DNA of 14,231 nucleotides from Nitrospira sp. (lineage in GTDB: Bacteria > Nitrospirota > Nitrospiria > Nitrospirales > Nitrospiraceae). Under the pieces are notes generated by a model. It searched no databases and was not told the origin of the DNA. It saw nothing but the letters and a program-made list of their open reading frames with translations. Positions 1 to 14,231 of the stretch are shown piece by piece. Made by a program: the position numbers and the translations under genes. How positions within the stretch are numbered: position 1 is the stretch's first letter; every line of letters starts with the position of its first letter. The stretch is from contig JACOEF010000435.1 in the NCBI GenBank assembly GCA_024998705.1, forward strand, positions 1 to 14,231, given 5' to 3'.

Positions 1-1103
1 AGTTGGAGCAGAATCATGAATCCGACCCGCAGGTGCGTGTCCTGAGCGAGACACTCGCGCAGCTCAATCTCGTGACGACCGATTTGCAATTGGCCGTGAT
101 GAAAACCCGCATGCTGCCGATCAAGAAGGTCTTCGCCAAGCTCCCCCGTATGGTCCGCGATCTCTCCCAAAAACTCAATAAGCAGGTCCATCTGGAAATG
201 CGCGGAGAGGAAACAGAACTCGATAAGTCCGTGGCCGATGAAGTCGGCGATCCTCTGGTGCACTTGGTGCGCAATGCCATCGACCATGGCATCGAAACGC
301 CGGCTGAACGCCAGGCCAAAGGGAAACCAGGCGAAGGCCAATTGACGATTGCGGCCAGTCAAGAAGGGAACAGTATCGTCATCCGTATTAACGACGACGG
401 TCGCGGGATTCAGGTTGAAAAGATCAAAGCGAAAGCGCTCGCCAAAGGGCTGATCAGCGAGACCGAACTGGCGGCCATGGAGCATCGCGAGATCCTCAAT
501 CTTATTTTTCTGCCCGGGTTCAGCACGGCCGAGCAGGTCACGGATGTGTCCGGCCGCGGCGTGGGCATGGATGTCGTGCGGACAAACATCCGCAAGATCA
601 ACGGAACGGTCGACCTCGAGTCCGAGGTCGGCACAGGCAGCCAAATCACCATCAAGCTGCCGTTGACCATCGCTATCATTCAAGCATTGATGGTTGAGGT
701 CGAGCGATCCATCTTCGCCATTCCGTTGAGCACTGTTATCGAAGCCGTTCGGATTTCCCGCCATGACATCAAGACGATCAATGGACGGGAAGTCCTGCAT
801 TTACGCGACCGTGTTCTGCCGTTGATCCGGCTGGCCCAAGAGTTCGACATTCCCACGGACGCGGAGCGCGAGCGCTTCTACGTCGTGGTGGCCGCGTTGG
901 GCGATCGCCGAGTCGGGGTAGTCGTTGATGAATTGCGGTCACAGGAAGAAGTCGTCATCAAGTCCATCTGGGATTACCTGGAAACCGTCAAGGGTGTCTC
1001 CGGCGCGACGATCACCGGAGAAGGAAAGGTCGTATTGATCTTGGATACGTCAGAGTTGGTGCAGAATGCTCAGGCCTGGCACAACTCCGGGATTGCGGCC
1101 TGA
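1..1103 (+). CDS. cheA: Chemotaxis histidine kinase CheA, 3' part (5' end outside window)
   Basis: This is the C-terminal 367 or so codons of CheA, the cytoplasmic kinase that takes receptor signals through CheW and phosphorylates CheY and CheB. The frame is open from base 3, and bases 1-2 (AG) end an unseen codon. Counting from base 3, residues 1-55 are the end of the P3 dimerisation hairpin (TRMLPIKKVF, GEETELDKS). P4, the ATPase domain, follows with the N-box HLVRNAIDHG (Asn near 91), NDDGRGI, and the F/G2 boxes PGFSTAEQVTDVSGRGVGMD. From about residue 225 comes the CheW-like P5 domain ending in ATITGEGKVVLILD. The P1 phosphotransfer domain lies upstream, unseen. The TTG at base 3 is only the first possible start in view, not the true one, because the gene enters mid-P3. 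The stop is TGA, and cheV follows after 94 bases. Identity is secure. Confidence 0.95.
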   Translation, partial: LEQNHESDPQVRVLSETLAQLNLVTTDLQLAVMKTRMLPIKKVFAKLPRMVRDLSQKLNKQVHLEMRGEETELDKSVADEVGDPLVHLVRNAIDHGIETPAERQAKGKPGEGQLTIAASQEGNSIVIRINDDGRGIQVEKIKAKALAKGLISETELAAMEHREILNLIFLPGFSTAEQVTDVSGRGVGMDVVRTNIRKINGTVDLESEVGTGSQITIKLPLTIAIIQALMVEVERSIFAIPLSTVIEAVRISRHDIKTINGREVLHLRDRVLPLIRLAQEFDIPTDAERERFYVVVAALGDRRVGVVVDELRSQEEVVIKSIWDYLETVKGVSGATITGEGKVVLILDTSELVQNAQAWHNSGIAA

Positions 1104-1197: not shown

Positions 1198-2181
1198 ATG
1201 TCCACTCTCATCAATGAAATCGACGCACGAACCCGACTGGCCGGCGCCAATCAGATGGAGTTGCTCCTGTTCAAACTCGGGACCAACGAAATCTTCGGCA
1301 TCAACGTATTTAAAGTTCGGGAAGTAATGAAATTGCCGGAACTTACCCAGATTCCGGAGGCAGATAGCCGCATCGTGGGCATGGCCAACATTCGTGGGAT
1401 CATGGTGCCTGTGGTGGGCCTCAAGCGCAGTTTGGGGCTCGGCTCGGAAAACGAGGGGCAGGTGGGAGGTGCGCCGGGCACCCATCCCTACCTGATCGTG
1501 TCCGAATACAACGGGACCTTACAAGGGTTCCTCGTGGCCGGCGTCGATCGCATCATTCGCTTTTCCTGGTCCGCCATTAAGACCCCTCCCGCCATCGTCA
1601 GGGAAAATAACAAAGGCGCGGTCACGGCCGTCACGATGCTGGAGGACGGACGCATGGTCCTGATCCTCGACGTTGAAAAGGTTCTCAACGATATCTGTCC
1701 GCGTTCCGATGATGAAGTGTTTGCCGGAATGGTTCCCGCCCCCGGCTTGAAATCCAAATGCATGCTGTTCGCCGACGATTCCTCCGTAGCGCGAACGCAG
1801 ATCCGCAAAGCATTGGAACGCCTCGAGATGTCCTACATCATGGCGACGACCGGCGGCGAGGCCTGGAAAAAACTCGAAGCCCTAGCGGAACAGGCCACGG
1901 CCGAGGGCAAGGAGCGAGTGGATCAGATTCACTGCATCCTCAGCGACATTGAGATGCCTGAAATGGATGGCTTCACCTTGACCAAGCATATTCGCGCGGA
2001 TCCGAGATTGGCGCACCTCCCAGTCATGTTGCACTCCTCCTTAACCGGAGCCTGCAACATGGAGAAGGGGAAAGCGGTCGGAGCGACCGATTACATCACC
2101 AAATTTGACGCCAAGATGTTGGGCGAAAAACTGGCCTATCATCTCGACGCGAATAAGACACCGGTGAGCAACGCGGCCTAG
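1198..2181 (+). CDS. cheV: CheV: CheW-like coupling domain fused to a receiver domain
   Basis: This 327-residue protein has the CheV architecture. The CheW-like domain (about residues 18-170) carries INVFKVREVMKLPELTQIP and IVGMANIRGIMVPVVGL, the parts expected to dock receptors and CheA P5. The receiver domain (about 190-320) has the acidic pair D193/D194, phospho-acceptor D250 in SDIEMPEMDG, a Ser in the LHSSL motif and K302 in TKFD, so it should accept phosphate from CheA. In known systems CheV couples receptors to CheA and its phosphorylation tunes adaptation. The ATG at 1198 is preceded by GGAGGA six to seven bases upstream, which fixes the start. It lies between cheA and cheB. The length matches the family (about 300-330). 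The stop is TAG, used here as a normal terminator. Confidence 0.95.
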   Translation: MSTLINEIDARTRLAGANQMELLLFKLGTNEIFGINVFKVREVMKLPELTQIPEADSRIVGMANIRGIMVPVVGLKRSLGLGSENEGQVGGAPGTHPYLIVSEYNGTLQGFLVAGVDRIIRFSWSAIKTPPAIVRENNKGAVTAVTMLEDGRMVLILDVEKVLNDICPRSDDEVFAGMVPAPGLKSKCMLFADDSSVARTQIRKALERLEMSYIMATTGGEAWKKLEALAEQATAEGKERVDQIHCILSDIEMPEMDGFTLTKHIRADPRLAHLPVMLHSSLTGACNMEKGKAVGATDYITKFDAKMLGEKLAYHLDANKTPVSNAA

Positions 2182-2221
2182 AGGAACCGACTCGCAGCGG
2201 GCAAGTGGGCACCGGCCTATT

Positions 2222-2248
2222 CAAGCTTTGGCCGTAGACAGCCGATGT
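2222..2248 (+). promoter_or_regulatory. Possible sigma-28 (FliA-type) promoter before cheB
   Basis: The octamer CAAGCTTT (2222-2229), then exactly 11 bases, then GCCGATGT (2241-2248) resembles the flagellar sigma-28 pattern TAAAGTTT-N11-GCCGATAA (5/8 and 6/8 matches). It lies in the 82-base gap between cheV and cheB. Transcription would start near 2255, giving a leader of only about nine bases before ATG 2264 with no room for a Shine-Dalgarno, which counts against it or against that start codon. Weak call. Confidence 0.25.
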
Positions 2249-2263
2249 ATCGGGCAACAACGT

Positions 2264-3355
2264 ATGGCACTTCCACAAACGCAGAGCGGAACAAATCGGG
2301 TGCGAGTGTTGGTCGTAGACGATTCCGCGTTCATGCGCAAAAGCCTGTCCAGCATGCTGGAGGAAGGCAAACAGATTCAGGTGGTGGGCGTCGCGCGGAA
2401 CGGTGAGGAAGCTGTTCAACAGGTCCTGCAACTGAAACCGGACGTCGTCACCATGGATGTGGAAATGCCGGGCATGACAGGACTTCAAGCGTTACAGCAA
2501 ATCATGGCGAAACATCCGGTGCCGGTCATCATGGTGAGTTCTATTACCGTCGAGGGCGCTCAAGAGACCCTGCAGGCCCTGGAATGGGGTGCGATCGATT
2601 TTGTGCCCAAACAACTGGATGGTGTGGCCTCCAAAATCACCGAAATACAACGCCTCTTAGTGCCCAAGGTGCTGGCTGCCAGATATGCCGGTTCGAAGTT
2701 GAAGAAGGTTCCCCTGATGGGAGGCGCTAAACCGGTAGCCCACCCAGCCAAGGCGTTGAGCAGCCTCTCCGTCAGCATGACCCGCGGCTCCAAGATTATT
2801 GCGATCGGCTGCTCCACGGGAGGGCCGCAAGCGCTGTTTGAAATCATGCCGACGATTCCGGCGGACTGCCCGGCCGGCATTGTCATCGTGCAACACATGC
2901 CGAAATCCTTTACCAAACCTTTTGCCGAGCGACTGAACAACCTCTGTGCGCTTGAAGTGCGAGAAGCAGTCGAGGGAGACGAAGTCAAACCAGGCCGCGT
3001 TCTCGTGGCGCCGGGCGGCCTGCAGTTCCGGGTCGTCAAAAAAAGCATTACCAGCTCCGTCGTCAAGTTGTCTCCCAATGTGGAGAACCATCCTCACGCG
3101 CCCTGTGCGGACATCATGATGCAATCAGTGGCAGCACTGTATGGAGAGCGGACCATCGGTGTGATTCTGACGGGCATGGGACACGATGGGTTGGAGGGCA
3201 TGCGCGCGATCAAAGCAGCGAAGGGACGAACGGTCGCGCAAGATGAAGCGTCCAGCGTGGTGTATGGGATGCCGAAGGCCGTGGTGGAAGCCGGGTGCGC
3301 AGAGAAAGTGGTTTCGCTCTCCAAAGTCATCGGCGAAATCATGAACATGGTGTAA
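2264..3355 (+). CDS. cheB: Protein-glutamate methylesterase/deamidase CheB
   Basis: CheB removes methyl groups from receptor glutamates and may deamidate glutamines, with activity raised by phosphorylation from CheA. From ATG 2264 the protein is 363 residues. The receiver domain (about 13-120) has VLVVDDSAFMR, D65 in TMDVEMPGM, VSSIT and the PKQ lysine. The C-terminal esterase (about 172-360) has the triad S184 (IGCSTGGPQ), H211 (QHMPKSFT) and D308 (GMGHDG). All key residues are present. The start is uncertain. An in-frame TTG at 2228 would add 12 residues, and neither site has a convincing Shine-Dalgarno. I prefer ATG 2264 because it places the receiver near the N-terminus. The gene is 82 bases after cheV and 47 before the heme MCP. 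No cheR is in the window. Confidence 0.93.
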   Translation: MALPQTQSGTNRVRVLVVDDSAFMRKSLSSMLEEGKQIQVVGVARNGEEAVQQVLQLKPDVVTMDVEMPGMTGLQALQQIMAKHPVPVIMVSSITVEGAQETLQALEWGAIDFVPKQLDGVASKITEIQRLLVPKVLAARYAGSKLKKVPLMGGAKPVAHPAKALSSLSVSMTRGSKIIAIGCSTGGPQALFEIMPTIPADCPAGIVIVQHMPKSFTKPFAERLNNLCALEVREAVEGDEVKPGRVLVAPGGLQFRVVKKSITSSVVKLSPNVENHPHAPCADIMMQSVAALYGERTIGVILTGMGHDGLEGMRAIKAAKGRTVAQDEASSVVYGMPKAVVEAGCAEKVVSLSKVIGEIMNMV

Positions 3356-3402
3356 CAAGGAACGTAATTCACTCGTTCACAACTGGAGAGGTAGGAGGCG
3401 TT

Positions 3403-5088
3403 ATGGGCAGCATGATGAAGGGGATGACCATCGGGCCGAAGTTTGTCCTGTCGATTATGATGGCGGCGTTGGTCGCAATTGGCATGGGCCTTACCGTCTT
3501 GTATCAGCAAGAAGAGAATAAGATGGATGTCATGTTGACCGGGCGTGCTCAGGTGCTGACGCAACAAATACAAATCGGACGCGCCTACATCGCCAGCAAC
3601 TATGTCGCCAAGCTGAAGAAGATGAAGGCGGGGGCGGACATTCAGATCCTGAAAGATCATGCCGGAAATGCGGATGCGATTCCGATTCCCGCGACCGCCG
3701 TCCGAGAAATGGGGGAGGAAGCCGCGAAGGGTGGCATGTACAGCGCGAGGCTGGTGAGCCAGAATCCGATGAATCCAAGCAACTCTCCGAAAGATAATTT
3801 CGAAAACGAAGCCATCCGAGCCATCATGGGCGGGGCCGAAAGTTATGCCCGCCGGGACGAAGTCAACGGGGTCCCGACCTTCCGCCGGGCGATGGTGGAT
3901 AAGGCCAGTACGGCCGCCTGCGTCAGCTGCCACACCAGCAATCAGATCGGTGACACGCTGGGTATGATGAGCATTTCGCTGCCCATGGGCCCCGCCATCG
4001 CACTGTCGAACAAATCGATGTGGCAAACCGGTGGACTGATGGTCGGGGTCGTTGTGCTGATCATGCTCGTTACATATCTCTTGCTCCGAAGCATCGTCCT
4101 GCAGCCTCTGGCAAAAATGAGCGACATCTCGCGCGATATTGCCAAGGGCGAGGGTGACCTCACCAAGCGCGTGCCGGCTGAAGGGAGCGACGAAATCGCT
4201 CACATGGGCCAGTATTTCAATGAGTTCATCGAAAAACTGCAGCTGATGATTAAGAAGGTTGCACATGTGACGGATAAAGTCGCTTCGGCATCGGTCGAAT
4301 GGTCCGCCACCGCTGAGGAGATTTCTAAAGGCACCGACACATTAACGTCGCGCGCCTCTCAGACCGCCGCCGCGGTGGAGGAGATGAACGCCACCGTCGG
4401 CCAAGTTGCGCAAAACTCGGGCAAAGCGGCAAGTTTGGCGCAAGATACCGTCAAGACTGCTCAAGAGGGCGGTACGGTGGTCTAGAGCACGATTTCCGGT
4501 ATGCAGCAATTGTCCGAAGCGGTCTCCAATTCGGCGACGATCATTTCCGACCTCGGGAAGTCTTCCGATCAAATCGGAGAAATCGTGCGGACGATTGAAG
4601 ACATTGCCGACCAGACCAACTTGCTGGCGTTGAACGCCGCGATCGAAGCGGCGCGAGCCGGTGAGCAGGGTCGTGGATTTGCGGTGGTCGCCGATGAAGT
4701 CCGGAAATTGGCTGAACGGACGACCAAAGCCACGAAGGAAATCGGCGATATGATCCGCCAGATTCAGCAGGATACGCGGGGAGCGGTGGACTCGATGCAG
4801 CAAGGAACGCAGAAAGTCACCGCGGGTGTGGATCTGGTGAATAAGACCGGTGAGGCCCTGTCTCAAATCGTGCGCATGGTCTCGGAGAGCGCCGATATGA
4901 TTCGACAGATTGCCGTGGCTTCGGAAGAGCAATCCGTCGCGACGCAGCAAATCGCCAGCGACATCGAAAACGTGGCGAAGGTCACCAAAGAGTCGTCCTC
5001 CGGCGCTCATGAGTCGGCCAAGGCGAGTCAGGATCTCAGCCAGCTGGCAGTGGAGCTGCAGGGAATCGTGGGTGGCTTCAAGATCTAA
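3403..5088 (+). pseudogene. Heme c-binding transmembrane MCP, interrupted by in-frame TAG at 4483
   Basis: This is a methyl-accepting chemotaxis receptor of 562 codons if read through codon 361 (TAG). ATG 3403 follows GGTAGGAGG, a strong ribosome site. TM1 is about residues 12-34. The periplasmic sensor (35-206) contains CVSCH (C173, C176, H177), the covalent c-heme motif typical of DUF3365/Tll0287-like sensors, so redox or gas sensing is likely. TM2 is about 209-229 and HAMP about 229-282 (LTKRVPAEGSDEI). E326/E327 sit in a good methylation consensus (AAAVEEMNAT). After the stop, the conserved signalling hairpin is intact at about 399-440 ([20 protein letters not shown]) and the gene ends at TAA 5086. 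No C-terminal CheR-binding pentapeptide is seen. If translation stops at 4483 the product lacks the CheA/CheW-contacting tip. No frameshift or other stop is present. Confidence 0.85.
4483..4485 (+). other. In-frame TAG inside the heme MCP (likely former GAG Glu)
   Basis: TAG is codon 361, in the context [18 protein letters not shown]. Receptors of this family commonly have Glu or Gln after the GG-x-VV motif, and GAG to TAG is one base change. ATG 4501 lies 15 bases downstream in frame but has no Shine-Dalgarno, so reinitiation is not favoured. Confidence 0.85.
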
Positions 5089-5115
5089 GTCGCCAAGCAC
5101 GAGAAGGAGCTCAGC

Positions 5116-5634
5116 ATGGGTGCCACTGAACAACAGGTCAAATCCCAGTATCACGCGGATCCGGAGATGAGCGTGGATCATCTGGGGGAAAAAACGGCAG
5201 ACGATCTCCTGCAGTTCGTGATCTGCCGGATCGGAAGTGAGGAGTTTGCGGTCGATGTCCTGAGCGTGCAGGAGATCAACCGGATTGTGGAAGTCACACG
5301 TGTTCCGAAGACTCCCCCCTATGTGGAGGGGGTCATCAATCTTCGAGGCCGCATTATTCCCGTGCTGGATTTGCGAAAACTATTCGGCCTCAGCGGGGCC
5401 CAGCAGACCACTCAGACTCGAATTGTGGTGGTATCGGTGCAGGCCCGCTTGGTCGGATTAGTCGTCGATTCAGTGGAAGAAGTATTGCGGGTGCCGAGGA
5501 GTGCGATCGAGCCGCCGCCCTCAGTCGGGACGATGGCCGGTGCGGAATTCACCCAGGGAGTCGGACGGATTGACGACCGGCTCCTGATCTTGGTGGATCT
5601 GAGCCGACTGCTTCTGGCTCGTGAAGCGGCTTGA
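5116..5634 (+). CDS. cheW: CheW coupling protein
   Basis: This 172-residue CheW bridges receptors to CheA P5 in the signalling array. The CheW fold covers about residues 32-168: QFVICRIGSEEFAVDVLSVQEI, the conserved VEGVINLRGRIIPVLDLRKLFG, then VGLVVDSVEEVLRVP and the closing LLILVDLSRLL. The N-terminal 30 residues are an acidic, probably flexible extension. ATG 5116 is preceded by AAGGAG at 5104-5109, a good spacing that decides the start. It follows the heme MCP by 27 bases, so it is probably co-transcribed with it, and it is the last gene of module 1. The stop is TGA. The window has a second CheW (11887), so each CheA module carries its own. Confidence 0.95.
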   Translation: MGATEQQVKSQYHADPEMSVDHLGEKTADDLLQFVICRIGSEEFAVDVLSVQEINRIVEVTRVPKTPPYVEGVINLRGRIIPVLDLRKLFGLSGAQQTTQTRIVVVSVQARLVGLVVDSVEEVLRVPRSAIEPPPSVGTMAGAEFTQGVGRIDDRLLILVDLSRLLLAREAA

Positions 5635-5653
5635 TCAGACCCAAACGAGGACC

Positions 5654-5700
5654 AAGTGGGGTGCCGGGAGGGGGCACATCCGCCCTCCCGGCCTCCACTT
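5654..5700. terminator. Strong hairpin between convergent genes, probable bidirectional terminator
   Basis: The arms 5654-5672 and 5683-5700 pair over 18 base pairs with one bulged T (5662) and one G-T pair, around a 10-base loop. The hairpin starts 20 bases after the cheW stop, and its right arm overlaps the stop codon of the minus-strand gene at 5699-5701. No T-run follows on either strand, so it is not a classical intrinsic terminator. Placement between convergent genes still supports transcription termination or mRNA 3' end protection. Confidence 0.6.
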
Positions 5701-5941
5701 AGGAACTCTGCGGATGAGAATCGGGCGGGGGATCCGAGCGTTGTCGATTCCTGGTCTCCAGGACGCGCTCAAGCAACTGTAACGATTCCGTCAACACGTC
5801 CGATGCGCACGTCAGGGTGACATGAAATTGTTGCATGGCTTCGGGCCAGCGCCCTTCCTTCTGCAGGACCTGAAATTTCCGATGCTGCTCATCGAGAATC
5901 GCTTGTTTGGCATCGAGCATCAAGCTATCGGCAGGACCCAC
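5699..5941 (-). CDS. Small helical protein of unknown function, minus strand
   Basis: I do not recognise this gene. It encodes 80 residues from GTG at 5941 (read on the minus strand). The start is chosen because a full GGAGGT Shine-Dalgarno (complement of 5948-5953) lies six bases upstream; the open frame extends further upstream to 6118, but that part looks like noise and crosses the motA start. Residues 8-58 look amphipathic and alpha-helical (LDAKQAILDEQHRKFQVLQK, then ESLQLLERVLETRN), with a W and a Pro/Ser-rich tail (SDPPPDSHPQSS). There is no signal peptide or TM segment. The size and helical character recall small flagellar chaperones such as FliT, but no diagnostic motif supports that. 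It is convergent with cheW, divergent from motA, and shares the 5654-5700 hairpin as its likely terminator. Confidence 0.55.
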   Translation of the reverse strand: MGPADSLMLDAKQAILDEQHRKFQVLQKEGRWPEAMQQFHVTLTCASDVLTESLQLLERVLETRNRQRSDPPPDSHPQSS

Positions 5942-6071
5942 AAGAGCACCTCCATGCAACAGAATTGTGACTCGATCGCACGCTATCAGAGTGCTTCCGA
6001 GAGGCGCAAGCCCACCATTCTGGGTACAGCCGATACGCTGCGTTCGGAAGCGATGATGAGGTAATCGACCA

Positions 6072-6842
6072 GTGGATATCGCAACAATCTTAGGTGTCGT
6101 CATCGCGATCGGGTCCATCCTGGGTGGTCAGGCGCTCGAGGGCGGCCATGTCGGGTCGGTACTCCAACTTACCGCGTTCATCATCGTGATGGGTGGAACG
6201 ATCGGCGCCTGTTGTGTGCAAAACCCCCTCTCTGTCGTCTTGAAATCCATCAGTATGGTCACGCTCGCGCTGACCAATCCTCCCCACGACGTCAAGGGAA
6301 CCATTACCCAGATCCTGGATCTCGCCAACGTCTCACGCAAACAGGGTTTGCTGGCCTTGGAAGGAAAAATAAAGGATTTGCACGACCCATTTTTCAAGAA
6401 GGGCGTTCAGCTCATCGTCGACGGGACCGACCCGAAGCTCATCCAAGAAATCTTGGAGATTGAGGTCGAGCACCATGAAGAAGAAGGGGTCCATGCGGCC
6501 AAGGTGTGGGAAGCCGCCGGTGGATACGCACCGACCGTCGGAATTCTTGGCGCCGTGCTCGGGTTGATCCACGTGATGGAAAATCTTGCCGACCCGTCCA
6601 AACTCGGCGGCGGTATTGCGGTGGCGTTCGTGGCGACGGTCTACGGCGTCGGCGCAGCCAATCTATTCTTCCTGCCGATCGGCAACAAGATGAAGTTCAA
6701 GCTGAAGGAAGAAGCCGGATTGCGGAACATGGTGATTATGGGGCTCGTCGGCCTGGCTCAGGGAGAAAATCCCCGCCTGCTGCAGGAAAAACTCGAAAGT
6801 TTCCTCCCTCCACATGAACGGACGAAAGACGACAAGAAATAA
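6072..6842 (+). CDS. motA: Flagellar motor stator protein MotA (proton/sodium channel subunit)
   Basis: MotA is the inner-membrane stator subunit that turns ion flow into torque on the flagellar rotor. The protein is 256 residues from GTG 6072, supported by TGAGGT at 6057-6062 (nine-base spacing) and the typical N-terminus MDIATILGVV. Four TM segments are visible: about 4-22, 30-52, 152-172 and 182-203. A long cytoplasmic loop lies between TM2 and TM3 and carries the charged rotor-contacting helices. GGYAPTVGILGAVLGLIHVM (TM3) and the C-terminal GENPRLLQEKLESFLPP are family hallmarks. The length matches short MotA/PomA proteins (about 250-260). Whether it uses H+ or Na+ cannot be read safely. 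motB follows after 82 bases. The 130-base gap upstream is shared with the divergent minus-strand gene. Confidence 0.94.
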   Translation: MDIATILGVVIAIGSILGGQALEGGHVGSVLQLTAFIIVMGGTIGACCVQNPLSVVLKSISMVTLALTNPPHDVKGTITQILDLANVSRKQGLLALEGKIKDLHDPFFKKGVQLIVDGTDPKLIQEILEIEVEHHEEEGVHAAKVWEAAGGYAPTVGILGAVLGLIHVMENLADPSKLGGGIAVAFVATVYGVGAANLFFLPIGNKMKFKLKEEAGLRNMVIMGLVGLAQGENPRLLQEKLESFLPPHERTKDDKK

Positions 6843-6924
6843 CGTTATTCGTCGTGCGTGACCCCTAGCTCGTTCCCGGGTTCAAACGCGTCCCCTTTCA
6901 CGAGCGACGATTCACGGGCATCCG

Positions 6925-7704
6925 ATGGCAAAGAAAAAACACGAAGAACACGAAAATCACGAACGTTGGCTGGTGTCCTATGCGGACTTCATCACGCTAC
7001 TGTTCGCCTTTTTTGTCGTGATGTATTCCGTGTCATCGGTCAACGAAGGCAAATATCGAACGGTCAGCGAGTCCATTAAAGCGGCCTTAAATCCGGTGAA
7101 CAGCACGCCTTCCAGCCGATTACCCTTTACCGTCGGCGACGCGAAGCCAAAGATGATCAATCCCGATATGTCGAGTGCCAACGAACCGGTTATTCGGCGA
7201 ATGAAAGAAATTTTGAAGAAAATCCATCCGAGCCTTGCCTTGGAAATGCCGGACATCAAAATTATTGAAACCGGTAATGGCACCATCATGATTTCCCTGC
7301 CGGAATCCATTCTGTTCGGAAGCGGGGAGGCGAGAGTGCGTTCGGAAGCCTTACCGTTTCTGAAAGCGTTGGCCGAAATCCTGATCGAAATGGACCGCCA
7401 CGTGCGCATCTTGGGGCACACAGACAACGTGCCGATACGAACGGCACAATTTCCGTCGAACTGGGAACTCTCCGCCCTGCGCGCAGTCATGGTTGCACGA
7501 ATCTTCTCAGAGCTCTACGAGCTACCGATAGCCCATCTCTCCGCGACCGGATTTGCCGACTCCAAACCAATCGCCACCAACGATACGCCCGAAGGACGGA
7601 CAAAGAACCGACGGGTCGAGATTATTGTCCTGGAAAAAAATCTGACAGGAGACAGCCTTGATTCGATGCTCCCCGGAGTGGGGCCTCCGGCCCAGCGGCT
7701 CTGA
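6925..7704 (+). CDS. motB: Flagellar motor stator protein MotB (OmpA-like peptidoglycan anchor)
   Basis: MotB pairs with MotA and fixes the stator to the cell wall. The 259-residue protein begins with a basic/His-rich cytoplasmic tail, then the single TM (about 18-38, SYADFITLLFAFFVVMYSVS) holding D21, the ion-carrying aspartate. The linker and plug region follow. The C-terminal OmpA-like domain (about 125-245) has ILGHTDNVPI, NWELSALRA and GRTKNRRVEI, which bind peptidoglycan. ATG 6925 is the obvious start from the N-terminal motif, though the preceding bases give no good Shine-Dalgarno. The 82-base gap to motA is longer than in many motAB pairs and holds no recognisable gene. The stop is TGA. 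Confidence 0.95.
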   Translation: MAKKKHEEHENHERWLVSYADFITLLFAFFVVMYSVSSVNEGKYRTVSESIKAALNPVNSTPSSRLPFTVGDAKPKMINPDMSSANEPVIRRMKEILKKIHPSLALEMPDIKIIETGNGTIMISLPESILFGSGEARVRSEALPFLKALAEILIEMDRHVRILGHTDNVPIRTAQFPSNWELSALRAVMVARIFSELYELPIAHLSATGFADSKPIATNDTPEGRTKNRRVEIIVLEKNLTGDSLDSMLPGVGPPAQRL

Positions 7705-7777
7705 GAACTGCTGGTGCTTCGGAGCGAATGGATATAGGCCCTGTGGGACAATGCCTTACTGTATGCCCCTTACGAGT

Positions 7778-7804
7778 TAAGAAGTTCGTGATTTAAACCG
7801 ATAC
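7778..7804 (+). promoter_or_regulatory. Possible sigma-28 (FliA-type) promoter before the STAS/MCP/cheY module
   Basis: TAAGAAGT (7778-7785), exactly 11 bases, then ACCGATAC (7797-7804) fits the sigma-28 pattern TAAAGTTT-N11-GCCGATAA. The core TAA matches and the -10 matches 6/8. It sits in the 138-base gap after motB, 38 bases before the STAS start, which leaves room for a short leader with its AAAGGA site. This is the best placed promoter candidate in the window for module 2. Confidence 0.4.
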
Positions 7805-7842
7805 CCCCCTGAAAAGTAGGTCGTTTTTTGAAAGGAACAGTC

Positions 7843-8073
7843 ATGATCCTCAAGCCTGCTGGTGACTTAACAATTTTCGAAGTCGGTGCGTTGCATGGGG
7901 AGATCAAGCAGGCAGCAGCGACGCATCCTCAAATCGAGCTGGATCTGCCCGAGATCGACAAACTGGATGCATCAGCGATTCAACTGCTGATTGCCCTCCG
8001 TCGGTCGGACCGCATGGTGTTGACAGGAATGACGGACGCGCTACGTACGCGCATGGCGGAACTGGGTGCGTAA
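7843..8073 (+). CDS. Small STAS-domain protein
   Basis: This is a 76-residue stand-alone STAS domain. The visible pattern is a beta-strand start (MILKPAGDLTIFEV), then IELDLPEIDKLDASAIQLLI, in which S44 of DAS occupies the position that anti-sigma antagonists have phosphorylated, and a shortened C-terminal helix (ALRTRMAEL). ATG 7843 has AAAGGA at 7831-7836; an in-frame TTG at 7828 precedes that site and is unlikely. It is at the small end for STAS. It begins module 2, 41 bases before the one-TM MCP. STAS proteins beside CheY and CheA occur in several bacterial chemosensory operons, where they are thought to be partners or regulators of the array rather than sigma-factor switches. The partner here is unknown and no anti-sigma kinase is nearby. 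Confidence 0.8.
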   Translation: MILKPAGDLTIFEVGALHGEIKQAAATHPQIELDLPEIDKLDASAIQLLIALRRSDRMVLTGMTDALRTRMAELGA

Positions 8074-8114
8074 CAACTGTCTGATCTCGTCATGACGTAC
8101 GGGAAACACCAGCA

Positions 8115-9230
8115 ATGATTTCATACTTACCGCTATTCTTGGGAGCGTTCGTGGTCGGTGCGTATCTTTCGTGGTTTTTGTGTCAGCGGCAGATGGCTTC
8201 AGCCAGAGAGGCATTGCAGGTCACACAGGAGGCCATGCTGAAAGAACGTGCGATGCGTACTATGGCCTGGGAGCAACTCGGGCAATCGACACTTCCGCTT
8301 GTACAGGTCCTGAACGCTCAGATGAAAAGTGTGATCGAGCAGACGGAGCGGGCAGCGACCGATTTGGGACAACGATTCGGCATGATTGCCGCCCGAGCGA
8401 CACAGCAGGCCAATCAATCCGCGCATCTGTTCGGCGACGGTGAAATGAGCGTGGATACGGTCCTCAAGACCGCCGATACGATGCTCGAAGGGTTTGTTGG
8501 TGACGTGATGAAGTCATCGGAAATGGCCCTTCAGATTGCAACCATTATGGACGAAGTCGAGCGAAGTACCAAAGCGATTACCGGGATGATCGGCGAGATT
8601 GAGTTTATTGCCGATCAGACGCGCTTACTGGCCCTCAACGCCGCGATCGAAGCCGCCCGGGCCGGGGAGCATGGCCGTGGATTCGCCGTCGTGGCCGATG
8701 AGGTCGCCAAACTGGCGAATCGTTCCGGGCAAGCGGCCAACAGCATCAACAGTCTGGTGAAGGACGTACAGAAAAACACGACATTGGCCATGAGCACGGT
8801 GGAGAGTCTCGCGTCGGTCGATTTGAGCAAAACCTTGGGAACTAAGCATCGGCTCGATCAGATGACCCGGGGCCTGGCCGACCGTAACAATGCGCTGAAG
8901 TCTGCCGTGATGACGTCAAAATCCCATGCCGATGAACTCGCGCGAGATGTCGGCCAAATCATCATGGCCCTCCAATTTCAGGACATCACAAGGCAAAAAC
9001 TGGAGCATGTGATTCAACCGCTCACTGAGGTTCGCGCGGTAATGGATGCCTTGATCCAGGGCCAGTCCCACGATCAGGTCGTCGGTAAAATGGATTTCCT
9101 AGCAAAGCTCGACCGCAGCTATACGATGGAAGAAGAACGTTCGATATTTCACCGGGTTGCAATCGGGTACGTCCCTGCGCCATCCCAGGGGAAAGCCCCT
9201 GTAGAAGACACCAATGTCACGTTGTTTTAA
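8115..9230 (+). CDS. One-TM MCP-like signalling protein with C-terminal DxxxQ motif
   Basis: This 371-residue protein has one N-terminal TM (about 4-24) and no periplasmic sensor or HAMP. The MCP hairpin is complete at about 163-205 ([37 protein letters not shown]), so it should dock CheW and CheA. The helix after the hairpin is short. From about 280 comes [16 protein letters not shown], where D290 and Q294 form the D-x-x-x-Q spacing of the CheZ phosphatase core (QDLTGQ in E. coli). An unstructured tail follows. It may sense at the membrane or organise the array, and it might act on CheY-P; the latter is inference. Start ATG 8115 has only a weak upstream GGGAAA. The neighbours are the STAS gene and cheY. 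Confidence 0.88.
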
Positions 9231-9267
9231 GTAACGTCGGATCATCAGAAGAATTAAGGAGTGCGCC

Positions 9268-9639
9268 ATGGCGAAAACGGTATTGGTTGTCGACGATTCT
9301 CCCACAATGCGACAGATGGTGGCGTTCACCCTGACCAGCGCAGGCTATCAGGTTGTGGAAGCCGGCAACGGCAAAGAGGCGGTCGGCAAGGTGAACGGCG
9401 GAGCCAAGCCGGACCTCGTCGTCACCGATCTGAACATGCCGGAGATGGACGGCATCACGCTGATCAAGGAGATCAGGAAGATGCCGGCGCTCAAGTTCAC
9501 GCCCATCTTGATGCTGACCACGGAAGCCTCTGATGACCAGAAAAAGGCAGGCCAGGCTGCCGGCGCCACCGGATGGATCGTGAAGCCCTTCAATCCGGAA
9601 CAGATGATGGCCGTGATTAAGAAGGTGCTGCCTGGGTAA
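9268..9639 (+). CDS. cheY: CheY-type single-domain response regulator
   Basis: This 123-residue receiver has no output domain. Key residues are all present: D9 and D10 (VLVVDDSPTMR), phospho-acceptor D54 (VVTDLNMPEMDG), T84 (LMLTTEAS) and K106 (WIVKPF). Phosphorylated CheY binds the flagellar switch to change rotation. ATG 9268 follows AAGGAG at 9256-9261. It sits 37 bases after the DxxxQ MCP and 63 before the second cheA, which is its presumed phosphodonor. Since the motA/motB pair is in the same window, a motor output is plausible. A role confined to this second module, for example as a phosphate sink, cannot be excluded. Confidence 0.95.
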   Translation: MAKTVLVVDDSPTMRQMVAFTLTSAGYQVVEAGNGKEAVGKVNGGAKPDLVVTDLNMPEMDGITLIKEIRKMPALKFTPILMLTTEASDDQKKAGQAAGATGWIVKPFNPEQMMAVIKKVLPG

Positions 9640-9702
9640 GTGCCCGCCTGGCAGCCCATGTGAACGAGCCGGCAGTACCAGCGATACAGAAGCAGGGGAA
9701 AC

Positions 9703-11826
9703 ATGAGCACTGACCTCTCACAATTCAAAGATGCCTTTTTCGAAGAATCGCAGGAACACCTGACGACCATCGAAGAGGGATTGCTTCAGCTCGAGCAACG
9801 ACCTGGCGACATCGATCTGCTGAACCGCATTTTTCGCGGAGCGCATTCCATCAAGGGCAACAGCGGGATGTTCGGCTTCACCGCCGTCTCTCAGTTTACG
9901 CACAAGATGGAATCGGTATTGGATCAGCTACGCAGCAGTCAGATGGTGGTCACGGTCGACATCACAGACCTCCTACTGCAGTCACTGGATTGTCTCAAAA
10001 CGTTAATTGATTGCGCGCGCACGGGAGAATCACCCGACGCGGCTCACGTCGAAGCTCTGAGCGTCAGACTCGAAGCGTGCCAAGGTGGACCATCTGCAGG
10101 ACACACAGCGACCGGCTCCGCAGCCGCTCCTCAAGCACATGCTCCGGGCATGCGCCGCTATACCATTACCTGGGTGCCGCCGGGGTATCTATTCCAACGA
10201 GGATTGGATCCTGGTCAGTTTATCAAGGAACTGGCCGGACTGGGCACTCTGACACATCTGGTCTTGGATGCCAGCCGGTTGCCCACATTGACTGAATTGG
10301 ATGCCGAGCTCTGTTACCTCGGTTGGACCATCGATCTGGAAACCGTCAAGGATCTCAAAGTCATCGAAGCGGTCTTCGATTTCGTGCGCGAGGACAGCAT
10401 CCTGACGATTGTGGAGAGTCAGGTCGCCGCGCACGCCGCCCACGTTGCATCAGACGGCGCGAAGCCATTGGGAGAAATCCTTGTCGAAACCGGCGTGGTG
10501 TCACAGTCTCAGCTGAATCAAGCGTTATCCCAGCAAAAAAAGGTTGGCGAAATTCTGGTCGAACAGAAGATGGCCACACCAGAGCAGATCTCCGAGGCAC
10601 TGAAGAAACAATCTGAAAGCACCGCTCCGGCGAAGAAGGCGGAAACTCCGTCGATCCGGGTCGATACCGTCAAGATCGATCGTCTCATCAACTTGGTCGG
10701 GTAATTGGTCATTACTCAGTCGATGCTGAGCGATCTCGGTTCTCGCTTTGAGATGAATCAACTGCCGGTATTACTGGAGCGCGTCGCGCAACTGGAACGA
10801 AATACACGCGAGATCCAAGAGCGCGTCATGGGGATCCGCATGGTTCCTATCGGCAATGCGTTCAGCAGATTCCCTCGTCTGGTTCGCGACTTGTCGGGCA
10901 AAGCCGGAAAAAAAATTCAACTGATCCTGTCCGGAGAAGAGACTGAACTCGACAAGACCGTGATTGAATCGATCGGCGATCCGCTGACCCACCTTGTCCG
11001 CAATTCGGCGGATCATGGCTTAGAACCACCCGACGAGCGTCTTGCTGCCGACAAACCGGAACAAGGCATTATTCTCCTCAACGCCTTTCATGAAGGCGGC
11101 AGCATTTGCATAACGGTGGAGGACGACGGGCGCGGACTGAATCGAGACAAGATTGTCGCGAAGGGAATCAAACAAGGATTGATCGCGGAATCCGACAAAC
11201 TGTCGGATGAGCAGATCTGGATGCTTATCTTCAAGCCGGGCTTCTCCACCGCGGACAAGATCACCGATGTGTCGGGTCGAGGCGTCGGCATGGACGTGGT
11301 GAAGCGAAACATCGAAGGACTGGGTGGCACGGTCAGCATCAAGACCGTCACGGGCAAAGGCACTACCTTTACCCTCAAGCTCCCGCTCACGCTCGCAATC
11401 ATCGAGGGCATGACCGTTCGTGTCGGTCGAGACACGTACATCGTTCCGCTCTTGTCGATTCTCGAATCGATTCAGCCCAAACGCGAGATGCTCAAGACCC
11501 TCGTCGGAAAAGGGGAGTTGGTCAATGTGCGCGGCACCTATCTTCCCCTGATGCGCTTGTATGAGGTGTTTCAGCTGGAGCCGGAAATCTCGGATCCTAC
11601 CAAGGCGATTCTGTTGATACTCGAGACGGAGGGCGAACGCGTCGCGGTCATGGTCGATGAAATTCTTGGGCAACAACAGGTCGTGATCAAGAGTATGGAG
11701 CAGAACTTCCGGAAAATCGAAGGAGTGGCCGGTGCGACCATTCTCGGCGACGGCACCGTCGGCTTTATTTTGGATGTCCGCGGATTGCTCAACATTGCGC
11801 GGGAAGGCACGGCAAAGGCGGCGTAG
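9703..11826 (+). pseudogene. cheA: Second CheA histidine kinase, interrupted by in-frame TAA at 10702
   Basis: This is a hybrid chemotaxis kinase of 708 codons counting codon 334 (TAA) and the terminal TAG. ATG 9703 follows AGGGGA at 9694-9699. P1 (1-110) carries H48 in AHSIKGNSGMFGF, the phosphorylated histidine. Residues 148-238 are a compact domain I do not name (GWTIDLETVKDLKVIEAVFD). Two 25-residue repeats starting GEILVE follow at 257 and 282, like the GspE N-terminal helical module. P3 opens with TVKIDRLINLVG and is then cut by TAA. Beyond it, LVITQSML resumes in the same frame, with N-box HLVRNSADHG (N434), DDGRGL, PGFSTADKITDVSGRGVGMD, and a CheW-like P5 ending GATILGDGTVGFILD. Downstream sequence is intact. 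Truncation would leave P1 without the kinase core. cheW follows after 60 bases. Confidence 0.9.
10702..10704 (+). other. In-frame TAA inside the second cheA (likely former GAA Glu)
   Basis: The codon lies in INLVG-stop-LVITQSML. CheA proteins almost always read NLVGELVI here, so the missing residue is Glu and GAA to TAA needs one change. The stop falls where the P1/linker half meets the P3-P4-P5 half. A TTG codon (10705) is directly adjacent, but no Shine-Dalgarno precedes it. Confidence 0.9.
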
Positions 11827-11886
11827 AGGCAGAGTTCTAGACAGGATCGGCGAGAACGATTCCACGAACAGGGCGAGGAGGCTACG

Positions 11887-12396
11887 ATGGCGACACAGGA
11901 ATTGACGGGAAAAGATTCGAATCAGCAGATCGGACTCACGACGGACGGCAGTCAATTCCTGACCTTCCAGCTGGGGGAAGAACTGTACGGAGTGGACATC
12001 CTCCGGGTTCAGGAGATTAAAGGCTACACGGCCGTCACACGCATCCCCAATACGCCGGCTCACATCAAGGGCGTGCTGAATTTGCGCGGTACCATCGTTC
12101 CAATCGTGGAGCTCCGGACGAAGTTCGGCATGCCGACAATCGAGTACACCATGTTCACTGTCATCGTGGTGGTGGTCGTGAAAGAAAAAATCATGGGACT
12201 CGTGGTGGATGCAGTGTCGGACGTCTTGGACATCGACAAGAAGGACATCCAACCCGCTCCGCAGTTCGGAGCACAGGTGGACGTGAGCTTCTTAAACGGC
12301 ATCGGCAAGGCCGGCGACAAGTTGGTGGCACTATTAGATATGGATCGTCTGTTGACCGATGGCGACATGCAAGAAGCGACGAAAGCTGCAGCCTAA
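11887..12396 (+). CDS. cheW: Second CheW coupling protein
   Basis: This 169-residue CheW differs clearly from the one at 5116. The fold runs from about residue 21 (QFLTFQLGEELYGVDILRVQ) through IKGVLNLRGTIVPIVELRTKFG, GLVVDAVSDVLDI and the closing KLVALLDMDRLL. Residues FEM-type insertions are absent. ATG 11887 has GAGGAGG just upstream (11875-11881), fixing the start. It lies 60 bases after cheA and 26 before the globin receptor. The spacing and shared orientation suggest one operon in which this CheW couples the globin receptor to the second CheA. The stop is TAA. Confidence 0.95.
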   Translation: MATQELTGKDSNQQIGLTTDGSQFLTFQLGEELYGVDILRVQEIKGYTAVTRIPNTPAHIKGVLNLRGTIVPIVELRTKFGMPTIEYTMFTVIVVVVVKEKIMGLVVDAVSDVLDIDKKDIQPAPQFGAQVDVSFLNGIGKAGDKLVALLDMDRLLTDGDMQEATKAAA

Positions 12397-12840
12397 TTAC
12401 TCGAACCAAGGGAGACCAGGACATGGCATTGAATGTTGAATTATTAGAGTCCAGTTTTAAGCTCGTTGCCCCCAAGGGAGAAGAGTTGGTCTCCCGGTTT
12501 TATGAGCGGCTGTTCAAGCAGTACCCGGCAGTGAAGCCCCTGTTCAAGAAGACCTCGATCAAGGAACAGAAAAAGAAACTCTTAGCGTCCTTAGTCTTGG
12601 TGATTCAGAACCTCCGTCGCCCCGAGAAACTCACGCCTGTCCTGCAGGACATGGGAGCCAGGCATGTGGGGTACGGCGCGCAGCCGGCCCATTACGATGC
12701 GGTCGGAGAAAATCTTCTGGCCGTTCTCGGCGAAGTGGCCGGATCGGCATGGACCCCTCAGGTCAAGCAAGCCTGGACTGAAGCCTACGGAGCGATCAAA
12801 AGCATCATGCTTGCCGGAGCAGAGCGTGCACAATCCACCC

Positions 12841-12857
12841 AAGGAGAGAAGACGATG
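12841..12857 (+). promoter_or_regulatory. Internal ribosome binding site and in-frame ATG at the globin/PAS junction
   Basis: AAGGAG at 12841-12846, eight bases, then ATG 12855 (MSKAKEKKG) in the frame of the long receptor. The site falls in the linker after the globin domain and before PAS A. It looks as strong as the starts of the flanking genes. It may produce a globin-free PAS-PAS-MCP, or be a relic of two once separate genes. Confidence 0.6.
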
Positions 12858-12923
12858 AGTAAGGCAAAAGAAAAGAAGGGCGCCTCTGCTGGAACGGACA
12901 TGCTGGGATTCTACCTGGGGGCC

Positions 12924-13628
12924 CTAGATCAATCGCAGAACAATATTCTGCTGTGCGATCGCAATCTGGTGATCACATATGCCAACTCGACGGCGCAAAA
13001 GACCCTCACCACTCTCGAGTCAGAAATCAAGAAAGTGCTGCCGAAGTTCAGTGCTGCCGCTGTCGTGGGAGTGTGCATCGATGACTTTCACGTGGACCCG
13101 AGCAAACAGCGTCGAATTTTGTCGAACCCTGCCAACATGCCGCATCGCGCGGATATTCACATCGGCCCGTTAACACTCAGCCTATTAGTCACGGCGATCA
13201 TGAGCCCCACGGGCGAATACTTGGGGAATGCGTTGGAGTGGGCCGATGTCACAGAGAAGCGCAGAATCGAAACCGAAATGTCCCGGCTCAAGGCGTCTCT
13301 GGACAATGCGCGATCAAACGTGCTCGTGTGTGATCGCAACTACACGATCGTGTATGCCAATAACCAATCTGCCACCACATTGCGCCGGCTAGAATCCGAT
13401 ATTCAGAAAGTCATGCCTACATTCTCCGTCGCGAAAGTCATTGGGTCGAACGTCGATCAGTATCACAAGAATCCGGCGCACCAACGCCGTTTGCTCGACA
13501 ACCCGCAGAACTTGCCGTACCGAACAGAAATCAAGATCGGGCCATTGACGCTCGACCTTGCGGTCGCGGCCATCATGGGTGAAAAGGGCGAGTACCTCGG
13601 GAACGTGGTCGAGTGGGCCGATGTCAGC
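12924..13628 (+). repeat. Tandem PAS domain duplication within the globin receptor
   Basis: Two units offset by about 375 bases (125 residues) can be aligned by eye: NNILLCDRNLVITYAN with SNVLVCDRNYTIVYAN, then IDDFHVDPSKQRRIL with VDQYHKNPAHQRRLL, IGPLTLSL with IGPLTLDL, and GEYLGNALEWADV with GEYLGNVVEWADV. Identity is high enough for an in-gene duplication rather than two unrelated PAS domains. Confidence 0.85.
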
Positions 13629-13964
13629 GCCCAGAAGAAGGCGCAGATAGAAATCGACAAGCTCATCGGTGCGGCAGCGGCCGGACAGCTTTCGGAACGC
13701 ATCAATGCGGCGGAGTTTGAAGGCTTCTTTAAGTCGCTCTCCGAAGGCGTGAATAAGATGCTCGATGCCGTCGTGACGCCCTTGCATGAGGCCCAGATGG
13801 TGCTCACAGCGATGGCGGCCAACGATCTCACCAAGACCATGACAGGGACCTATCAGGGTGAGTTCGAGCAAATGAAGTCCAGCCTGAACGGTGCGATGAA
13901 CACGTTGAGTGTCGCGATCTCGACGTTGCGCGACGGCGCAGAAAGTGTCACCGCCGGCGCGGAG

Positions 13965-13967
13965 TAG
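13965..13967 (+). other. In-frame TAG inside the globin MCP (likely former GAG Glu)
   Basis: The context is TAGAE-stop-ITKGNEDLSQR. Related receptors commonly have an acidic E-I-x-x-G-N-x-D-L-S sequence here, so Glu is the expected residue and GAG to TAG is one base. The next in-frame ATG (14044) has no ribosome site. Confidence 0.85.
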
Positions 13968-14231
13968 ATCACCAAAGGCAACGAGGACCTTTCACAGCGC
14001 ACGTCTGAGCAGGCCAGTGCGTTGGAGCAGACGTCGGCTTCTATGGAAGAGATGACCTCGACCGTGAAGCAAAATGCCGACAATGCCAAACAGGCCAACC
14101 AGTTGGCCATCGCAGCGCGCGACATCGCCGACAAGGGTGGATCCGTTACGGTTCGCGCGGTGGAAGCCATGGGTGAGATCAATAAGAGCAGCAAAAAGAT
14201 TGCGGACATCATCACCGTGATCGATGAGATC

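Follow-up and report, generated by a model that had tools for sequence, protein, structure and literature searches.

The window, that is, the whole 14,231-nucleotide stretch of DNA analysed here, is one entire contig (C1025; JACOEF010000435.1) of a fragmented Nitrospira draft genome (G000; GCA_024998705.1) that consists of 1028 contigs and is 88.84% complete and 4.88% contaminated. It contains a cluster of chemotaxis and motor genes, with named kin that include Nitrospira sp. S2bin.17 and Candidatus Nitrospira defluvii (second CheA about 90% identical). Thirteen genes of the window were examined; three, encoding a heme-type methyl-accepting chemotaxis protein (MCP), the second CheA and a globin-containing MCP, have one internal stop codon each, and the other ten have none. 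The features are as follows.

3403..5088, forward strand: heme-type MCP gene (Tll0287-like/DUF3365 sensor, HAMP and MCP signal domains), one interruption; from the 561-residue read-through frame and the Pfam list of P0001, its nearest full-length protein
4483..4485, forward strand: internal TAG in the heme MCP gene; Ser in relatives at ≥60% identity
9703..11826, forward strand: second cheA, one interruption; 707-residue read-through frame aligned with relatives
10702..10704, forward strand: internal TAA in the second cheA; Glu in relatives
12423..14231, forward strand: globin-PAS-PAS MCP gene, one interruption, truncated by the contig end; 603 residues aligned, with intact proteins P0241-P0244
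13965..13967, forward strand: internal TAG in the globin MCP gene; Gln or Glu in relatives
3..1103, forward strand: first cheA, 5' part missing at the contig start, open as far as seen; from frames and relatives' alignments
1198..9639 (minus 3403-5088), forward strand: uninterrupted remainder, comprising cheV, cheB, cheW, motA, motB, a STAS protein gene, a small MCP gene and cheY
11887..12396, forward strand: cheW-like gene, uninterrupted, between the second cheA and the globin MCP gene

The domains of the heme MCP come from the precomputed Pfam list of P0001, and the gene names in 1198..9639 are presumed from resemblance.

Each of the three stops (TAG at 4483, TAA at 10702 and TAG at 13965) is the sole in-frame stop inside its gene, and, as the earlier note had claimed, there is no frameshift and conserved coding sequence continues beyond it, since the read-through frames of all three genes align unshifted with relatives. 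The heme MCP frame aligns over all 561 residues in 10 of the 12 relatives' stretches (one of the others begins at residue 4 and one lacks the gene), with 86-92% identity in 11 of the 12. The second cheA frame aligns over 707 of 707 residues in all 12 stretches at 85-90% identity, and the 603 residues of the globin MCP that are present align over their full length in 8 of the 12. Across all 13 genes, 12 aligned rows among relatives contain a stop, five of them at ≤35% identity; the remainder, for which a lesion or an alignment overrun is alike possible, are a cheA at 73% (L049), a cheB at 85% of one genome seen twice (L027, L046), three cheW at 71-79% and a short globin MCP at 58% (L068).

Uninterrupted copies of all three genes are present in other assemblies, at 561, 707 and 815 residues. 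The nearest full-length proteins are P0001 for the heme MCP (98% identity), P0121 for the second CheA (96%, 440 residues searched) and P0241 for the globin MCP (96%, 514 residues searched), which carry Ser, Glu and Glu respectively at the stop sites; intact globin MCP proteins P0241-P0244 are 815-818 residues long. Query lengths were set so that shortened forms (360, 333 and 514 residues) could also qualify as matches, and none occurred among the matches listed (the best 120 of 493, the best 120 of 562 and all 67), although this tells little, as proteins are grouped at 90% identity in the collection and the window's own shortened products were missing from the matches listed as well.

The residues that relatives carry at the three sites do not form one class. 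The earlier note had taken every missing residue to fit Glu; relatives instead show Ser in the heme MCP, Glu in CheA and Gln or Glu in the globin MCP (the rows counted are not independent genomes, several of which are included twice). At the heme MCP site, Ser (TCG, TCC or TCA) occupies all 24 rows at ≥60% identity, whilst among all 123 rows there are 34 Glu, 27 Ser, 25 Val and others, with Glu only in the more distant rows, so that, judged from these alignments, Glu suits only more distant MCPs. The CheA site holds Glu throughout, both in the 99 rows at ≥60% identity and in all 121 rows. At the globin MCP site, the 49 rows at ≥60% identity divide into 33 with Gln and 16 with Glu (Gln 40, Glu 23 and one stop among all 64), with Gln in the five best-scoring rows. 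The absence of Glu in relatives had been named beforehand as something that would speak against a shared Glu origin; this is what the heme MCP site shows, whilst the CheA site keeps Glu. A class of Glu codons only was thus rejected, and Glu at one or two of three sites is ordinary, because 19-23% of random new stops would arise from Glu codons given the codon usage of the window.

Internal stops also occur in unrelated genes on other contigs of the draft. Of 112 Response_reg matches in the draft, 3 hold an internal stop; none does among the 116 of the single-contig N. defluvii genome or the 113 of G002, a second Nitrospira draft that is likewise fragmented. For ABC_tran the draft has 2 of 42, one of which lies right at the boundary of its match. 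In an ortholog comparison, the window and 87 other contigs (670,617 bases) were set against 41 N. defluvii stretches (815,001 bases), counting genes of ≥200 residues at 70% identity with mismatches mostly at third codon positions, and stops lying ≥30 aligned codons from either end and flanked on each side by 12 identical residues out of 20. By this rule 12 internal stops fall in 57,139 codons of the draft, two of them in the window and ten in the 54,675 codons outside it, whereas the reverse comparison gives two in 58,348 codons of N. defluvii. These two lie at residue 71 in a query frame of 430 and at residue 31 in one of 394, and may precede the real starts. The third window stop, in the globin MCP, falls outside this count because the N. 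defluvii copy is only 61% identical. Frame changes, counted under looser rules, number three in the draft versus one in the reverse comparison. Lesions are thus spread across unrelated genes and exceed those of a finished relative, rather than being confined to the chemotaxis pathway.

Several features of the sampling bear on these counts. Contigs C972, C881, C845, C270 and C489 entered the set because a stop or a split gene in them was already known. Response-regulator genes guided the choice of N. defluvii stretches, among which are those corresponding to C972 and C750, and regulators are over-represented; the stops of C972 and C750, known beforehand, are two of the ten counted. The counting rule removed seven rows in the draft (among them C792, seemingly before the real start) and seven in the control. 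An earlier ortholog scan had given 25 stops, many near starts or in doubtful frames, and an ab initio scan for coding continuity gave, at its middle threshold, 35 candidates in the 88 contigs versus 14 in the N. defluvii stretches, with too many false positives for counting. Clustering of lesions on particular contigs was considered and rejected, since the two same-contig pairs among the 12 counted stops were reached by 2993 of 5000 shuffles. In an ABC transporter ATPase gene on C489 (L139), a frame change lies inside the Walker A motif, around position 6444.

The residues lost at the ten outside stops, taking the N. defluvii state, are Gln (3), Tyr (2), Trp (2), Glu, Leu and Arg (1 each). Pooling these ten with the three window stops and one in metG (see below) gives 14 lesions, from which the stops of C845, C270 and C881, with no close-ortholog comparison, are left out. 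The pooled stops are TAG (7), TAA (4) and TGA (3), against 48/35/17% expected from random substitution, and Glu accounts for 2 or 3 of the 14, against 19-23%. Compared with relatives' codons, allowing for synonymous third-base differences, seven changes are C>T/G>A, three are C>A/G>T, two are C>G and one is T>A, the globin MCP lesion being either C>T or G>T. Judged from these codon comparisons, the lost residues and stop types agree with random single-base changes, and no single mutation class covers them all. Two related claims therefore fell away. The idea of three alike G-to-T changes in one pathway is contradicted by the differing residues, the mixed spectrum and the unrelated genes hit on other contigs. 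The expectation that random decay would look otherwise does not hold either, as mixed lesions, including frame changes, are found elsewhere in the genome; non-Glu nonsense and frameshift lesions, which the earlier note had listed as contrary evidence, are present in the compared contigs.

One of the affected genes is metG, which is essential for a living cell. The only copy found in the draft lies at 2196-4217 of C1004 (L235) and has an internal TAG at codon 117 (position 2544). Four relatives, in each of which metG has a single strong, uninterrupted match, carry Gln at this codon (7 of 7 rows). The one TAG flagged in the PF00133 match is the stop that precedes the metG start, and the true internal TAG lies further downstream. 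Among the genes with lesions, metG is the one that is essential and was found in a single copy.

These observations suggest, with a probability of roughly 0.8, that the three stops are wrong bases, produced by random single-base errors in the low-quality consensus of a metagenome-assembled Nitrospira genome. A sequencing artefact had been one option among several in the earlier note, and it is the reading best supported by the scattered, mixed lesions and by the hit in metG. Base-calling or assembly error, rather than mutation, is most likely the cause. Random single-base errors would strike codons anywhere and be noticed where a stop arises, and in the organism itself the three chemotaxis genes would then most likely be intact and work normally. 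From the codons compared, the stops are not specific to chemotaxis, to Glu or to G-to-T change.

The principal alternative, that these are real nonsense mutations, either in a strain that has lost chemotaxis and carries early-stage pseudogenes or as rare damaging population variants captured by the assembly, is considered unlikely, although several observations lean towards it or weigh against consensus error. Three genes of a single pathway are hit and the remainder of each is still conserved, as in recent decay. Stops are denser in the window than elsewhere in the draft: its 4,274 codons would be expected to hold 0.78 stops at the rate seen outside, and three are observed (Poisson P(≥3) = 0.045), or, by our arithmetic, 0.63 with P of about 0.026 when the C972 and C750 lesions are left out, both P values being uncorrected for the choice of the window because of its stops. 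Excluding stops, the three proteins have 15 private missense differences in the window versus 10 in near kin, with 29 further differences unassignable; the excess predicted from the stop rate and a stop-to-missense ratio of 0.034 to 0.728 is only about 7. At columns invariant in the other stretches, the window has private amino acids at 74 of 2977 and each relative at 0-22, a contrast that is inflated because the window lacks a close sister in the set, whilst most relatives have one. Transitions (C>T/G>A), which natural mutation favours too, account for half of the pool. A second metG could lie within the missing 11% of the genome, and other essential-type families yielded no true internal stops, with 0 of 13 matches for PF00361 and none in the remaining matches for PF00133 (five matched pieces). 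On the other side, real mutations would have to account for lesions in unrelated genes, metG included, for the ten other window genes without an internal stop and for kin that are intact at 98-96% identity.

The remaining explanations are far less probable. Recoding or suppression, in which the stops would be read through with insertion of Glu or another residue, would explain why conserved sequence carries on past each stop and why even metG has one; it is nonetheless very unlikely, because many residues are lost and three stop codons are used. The residues replaced are Ser, Glu and Glu or Gln in the window and Gln, Trp, Tyr, Leu, Arg and Glu elsewhere, rather than a single one throughout, and each of TAA, TAG and TGA terminates neighbouring genes of the window as well as occurring within genes, which bears out the earlier view that simple genome-wide reassignment is improbable. 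Such stops are also few in N. defluvii, and a suppressor tRNA is disfavoured, as ARAGORN shows no CUA, UUA or UCA anticodon among the 29 tRNA loci recovered from the draft, an incomplete set. A G-to-T-specific process, such as 8-oxoguanine damage or a mutator, is comparably improbable: the heme MCP change (C>A), the cheA change (G>T) and possibly the globin MCP change (G>T) fall in one class, but at most four of the 14 pooled lesions fit it, the others being C>T/G>A, C>G or T>A, and it was rejected on this mixed spectrum. More remote still is a lineage that tolerates some two hundred in-frame stops (an extrapolated figure), metG included, through broad nonsense suppression that would insert near-cognate residues at TAA, TAG and TGA alike.

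Attribution of the stops to consensus error would place the window alongside the gene-fragmenting errors of draft assemblies, such as those treated in the Kastor paper (PMC12007338), where false premature stops and frameshifts are recognised against references. That paper concerns long-read assemblies, whereas substitutions outnumber frame changes here. The result has no bearing on Nitrospira biology and serves as a caution: premature stops in a pathway of a fragmented draft need to be compared with the draft-wide stop rate and with essential genes before loss of function or recoding is claimed.

The heme MCP has a further unusual codon at 4300-4302, 61 codons before its stop, which encodes Trp in the window; Leu is invariant here in the kin protein and in 18 outgroup proteins, and this change, from the alignment, may be another wrong base.

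All 13 genes of the window are matched within one stretch of about 18 kb both in Candidatus Nitrospira defluvii (FP929003) and in Nitrospira sp. S2bin.17 (JACOEL), where the copies of the three genes differ in having no internal stop. Protein identity to the window is 85-99% for 10 of the 13 genes in N. defluvii and for 11 of the 13 in S2bin.17, with matches taken per stretch rather than in gene-by-gene order. Some Nitrospira stretches (L022, L023, L026) have a globin MCP 90-93% identical to that of the window and others (L020, L028, L030, L031) one at only about 60%, whilst the adjoining cheA and cheW-like genes remain at 85-97%; to go by these identities, the receptor gene may have been swapped at a fixed site. 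The draft of one relative (G017; L024, L029) has the second cheA twice, at 90 and 87% identity to the window's gene.

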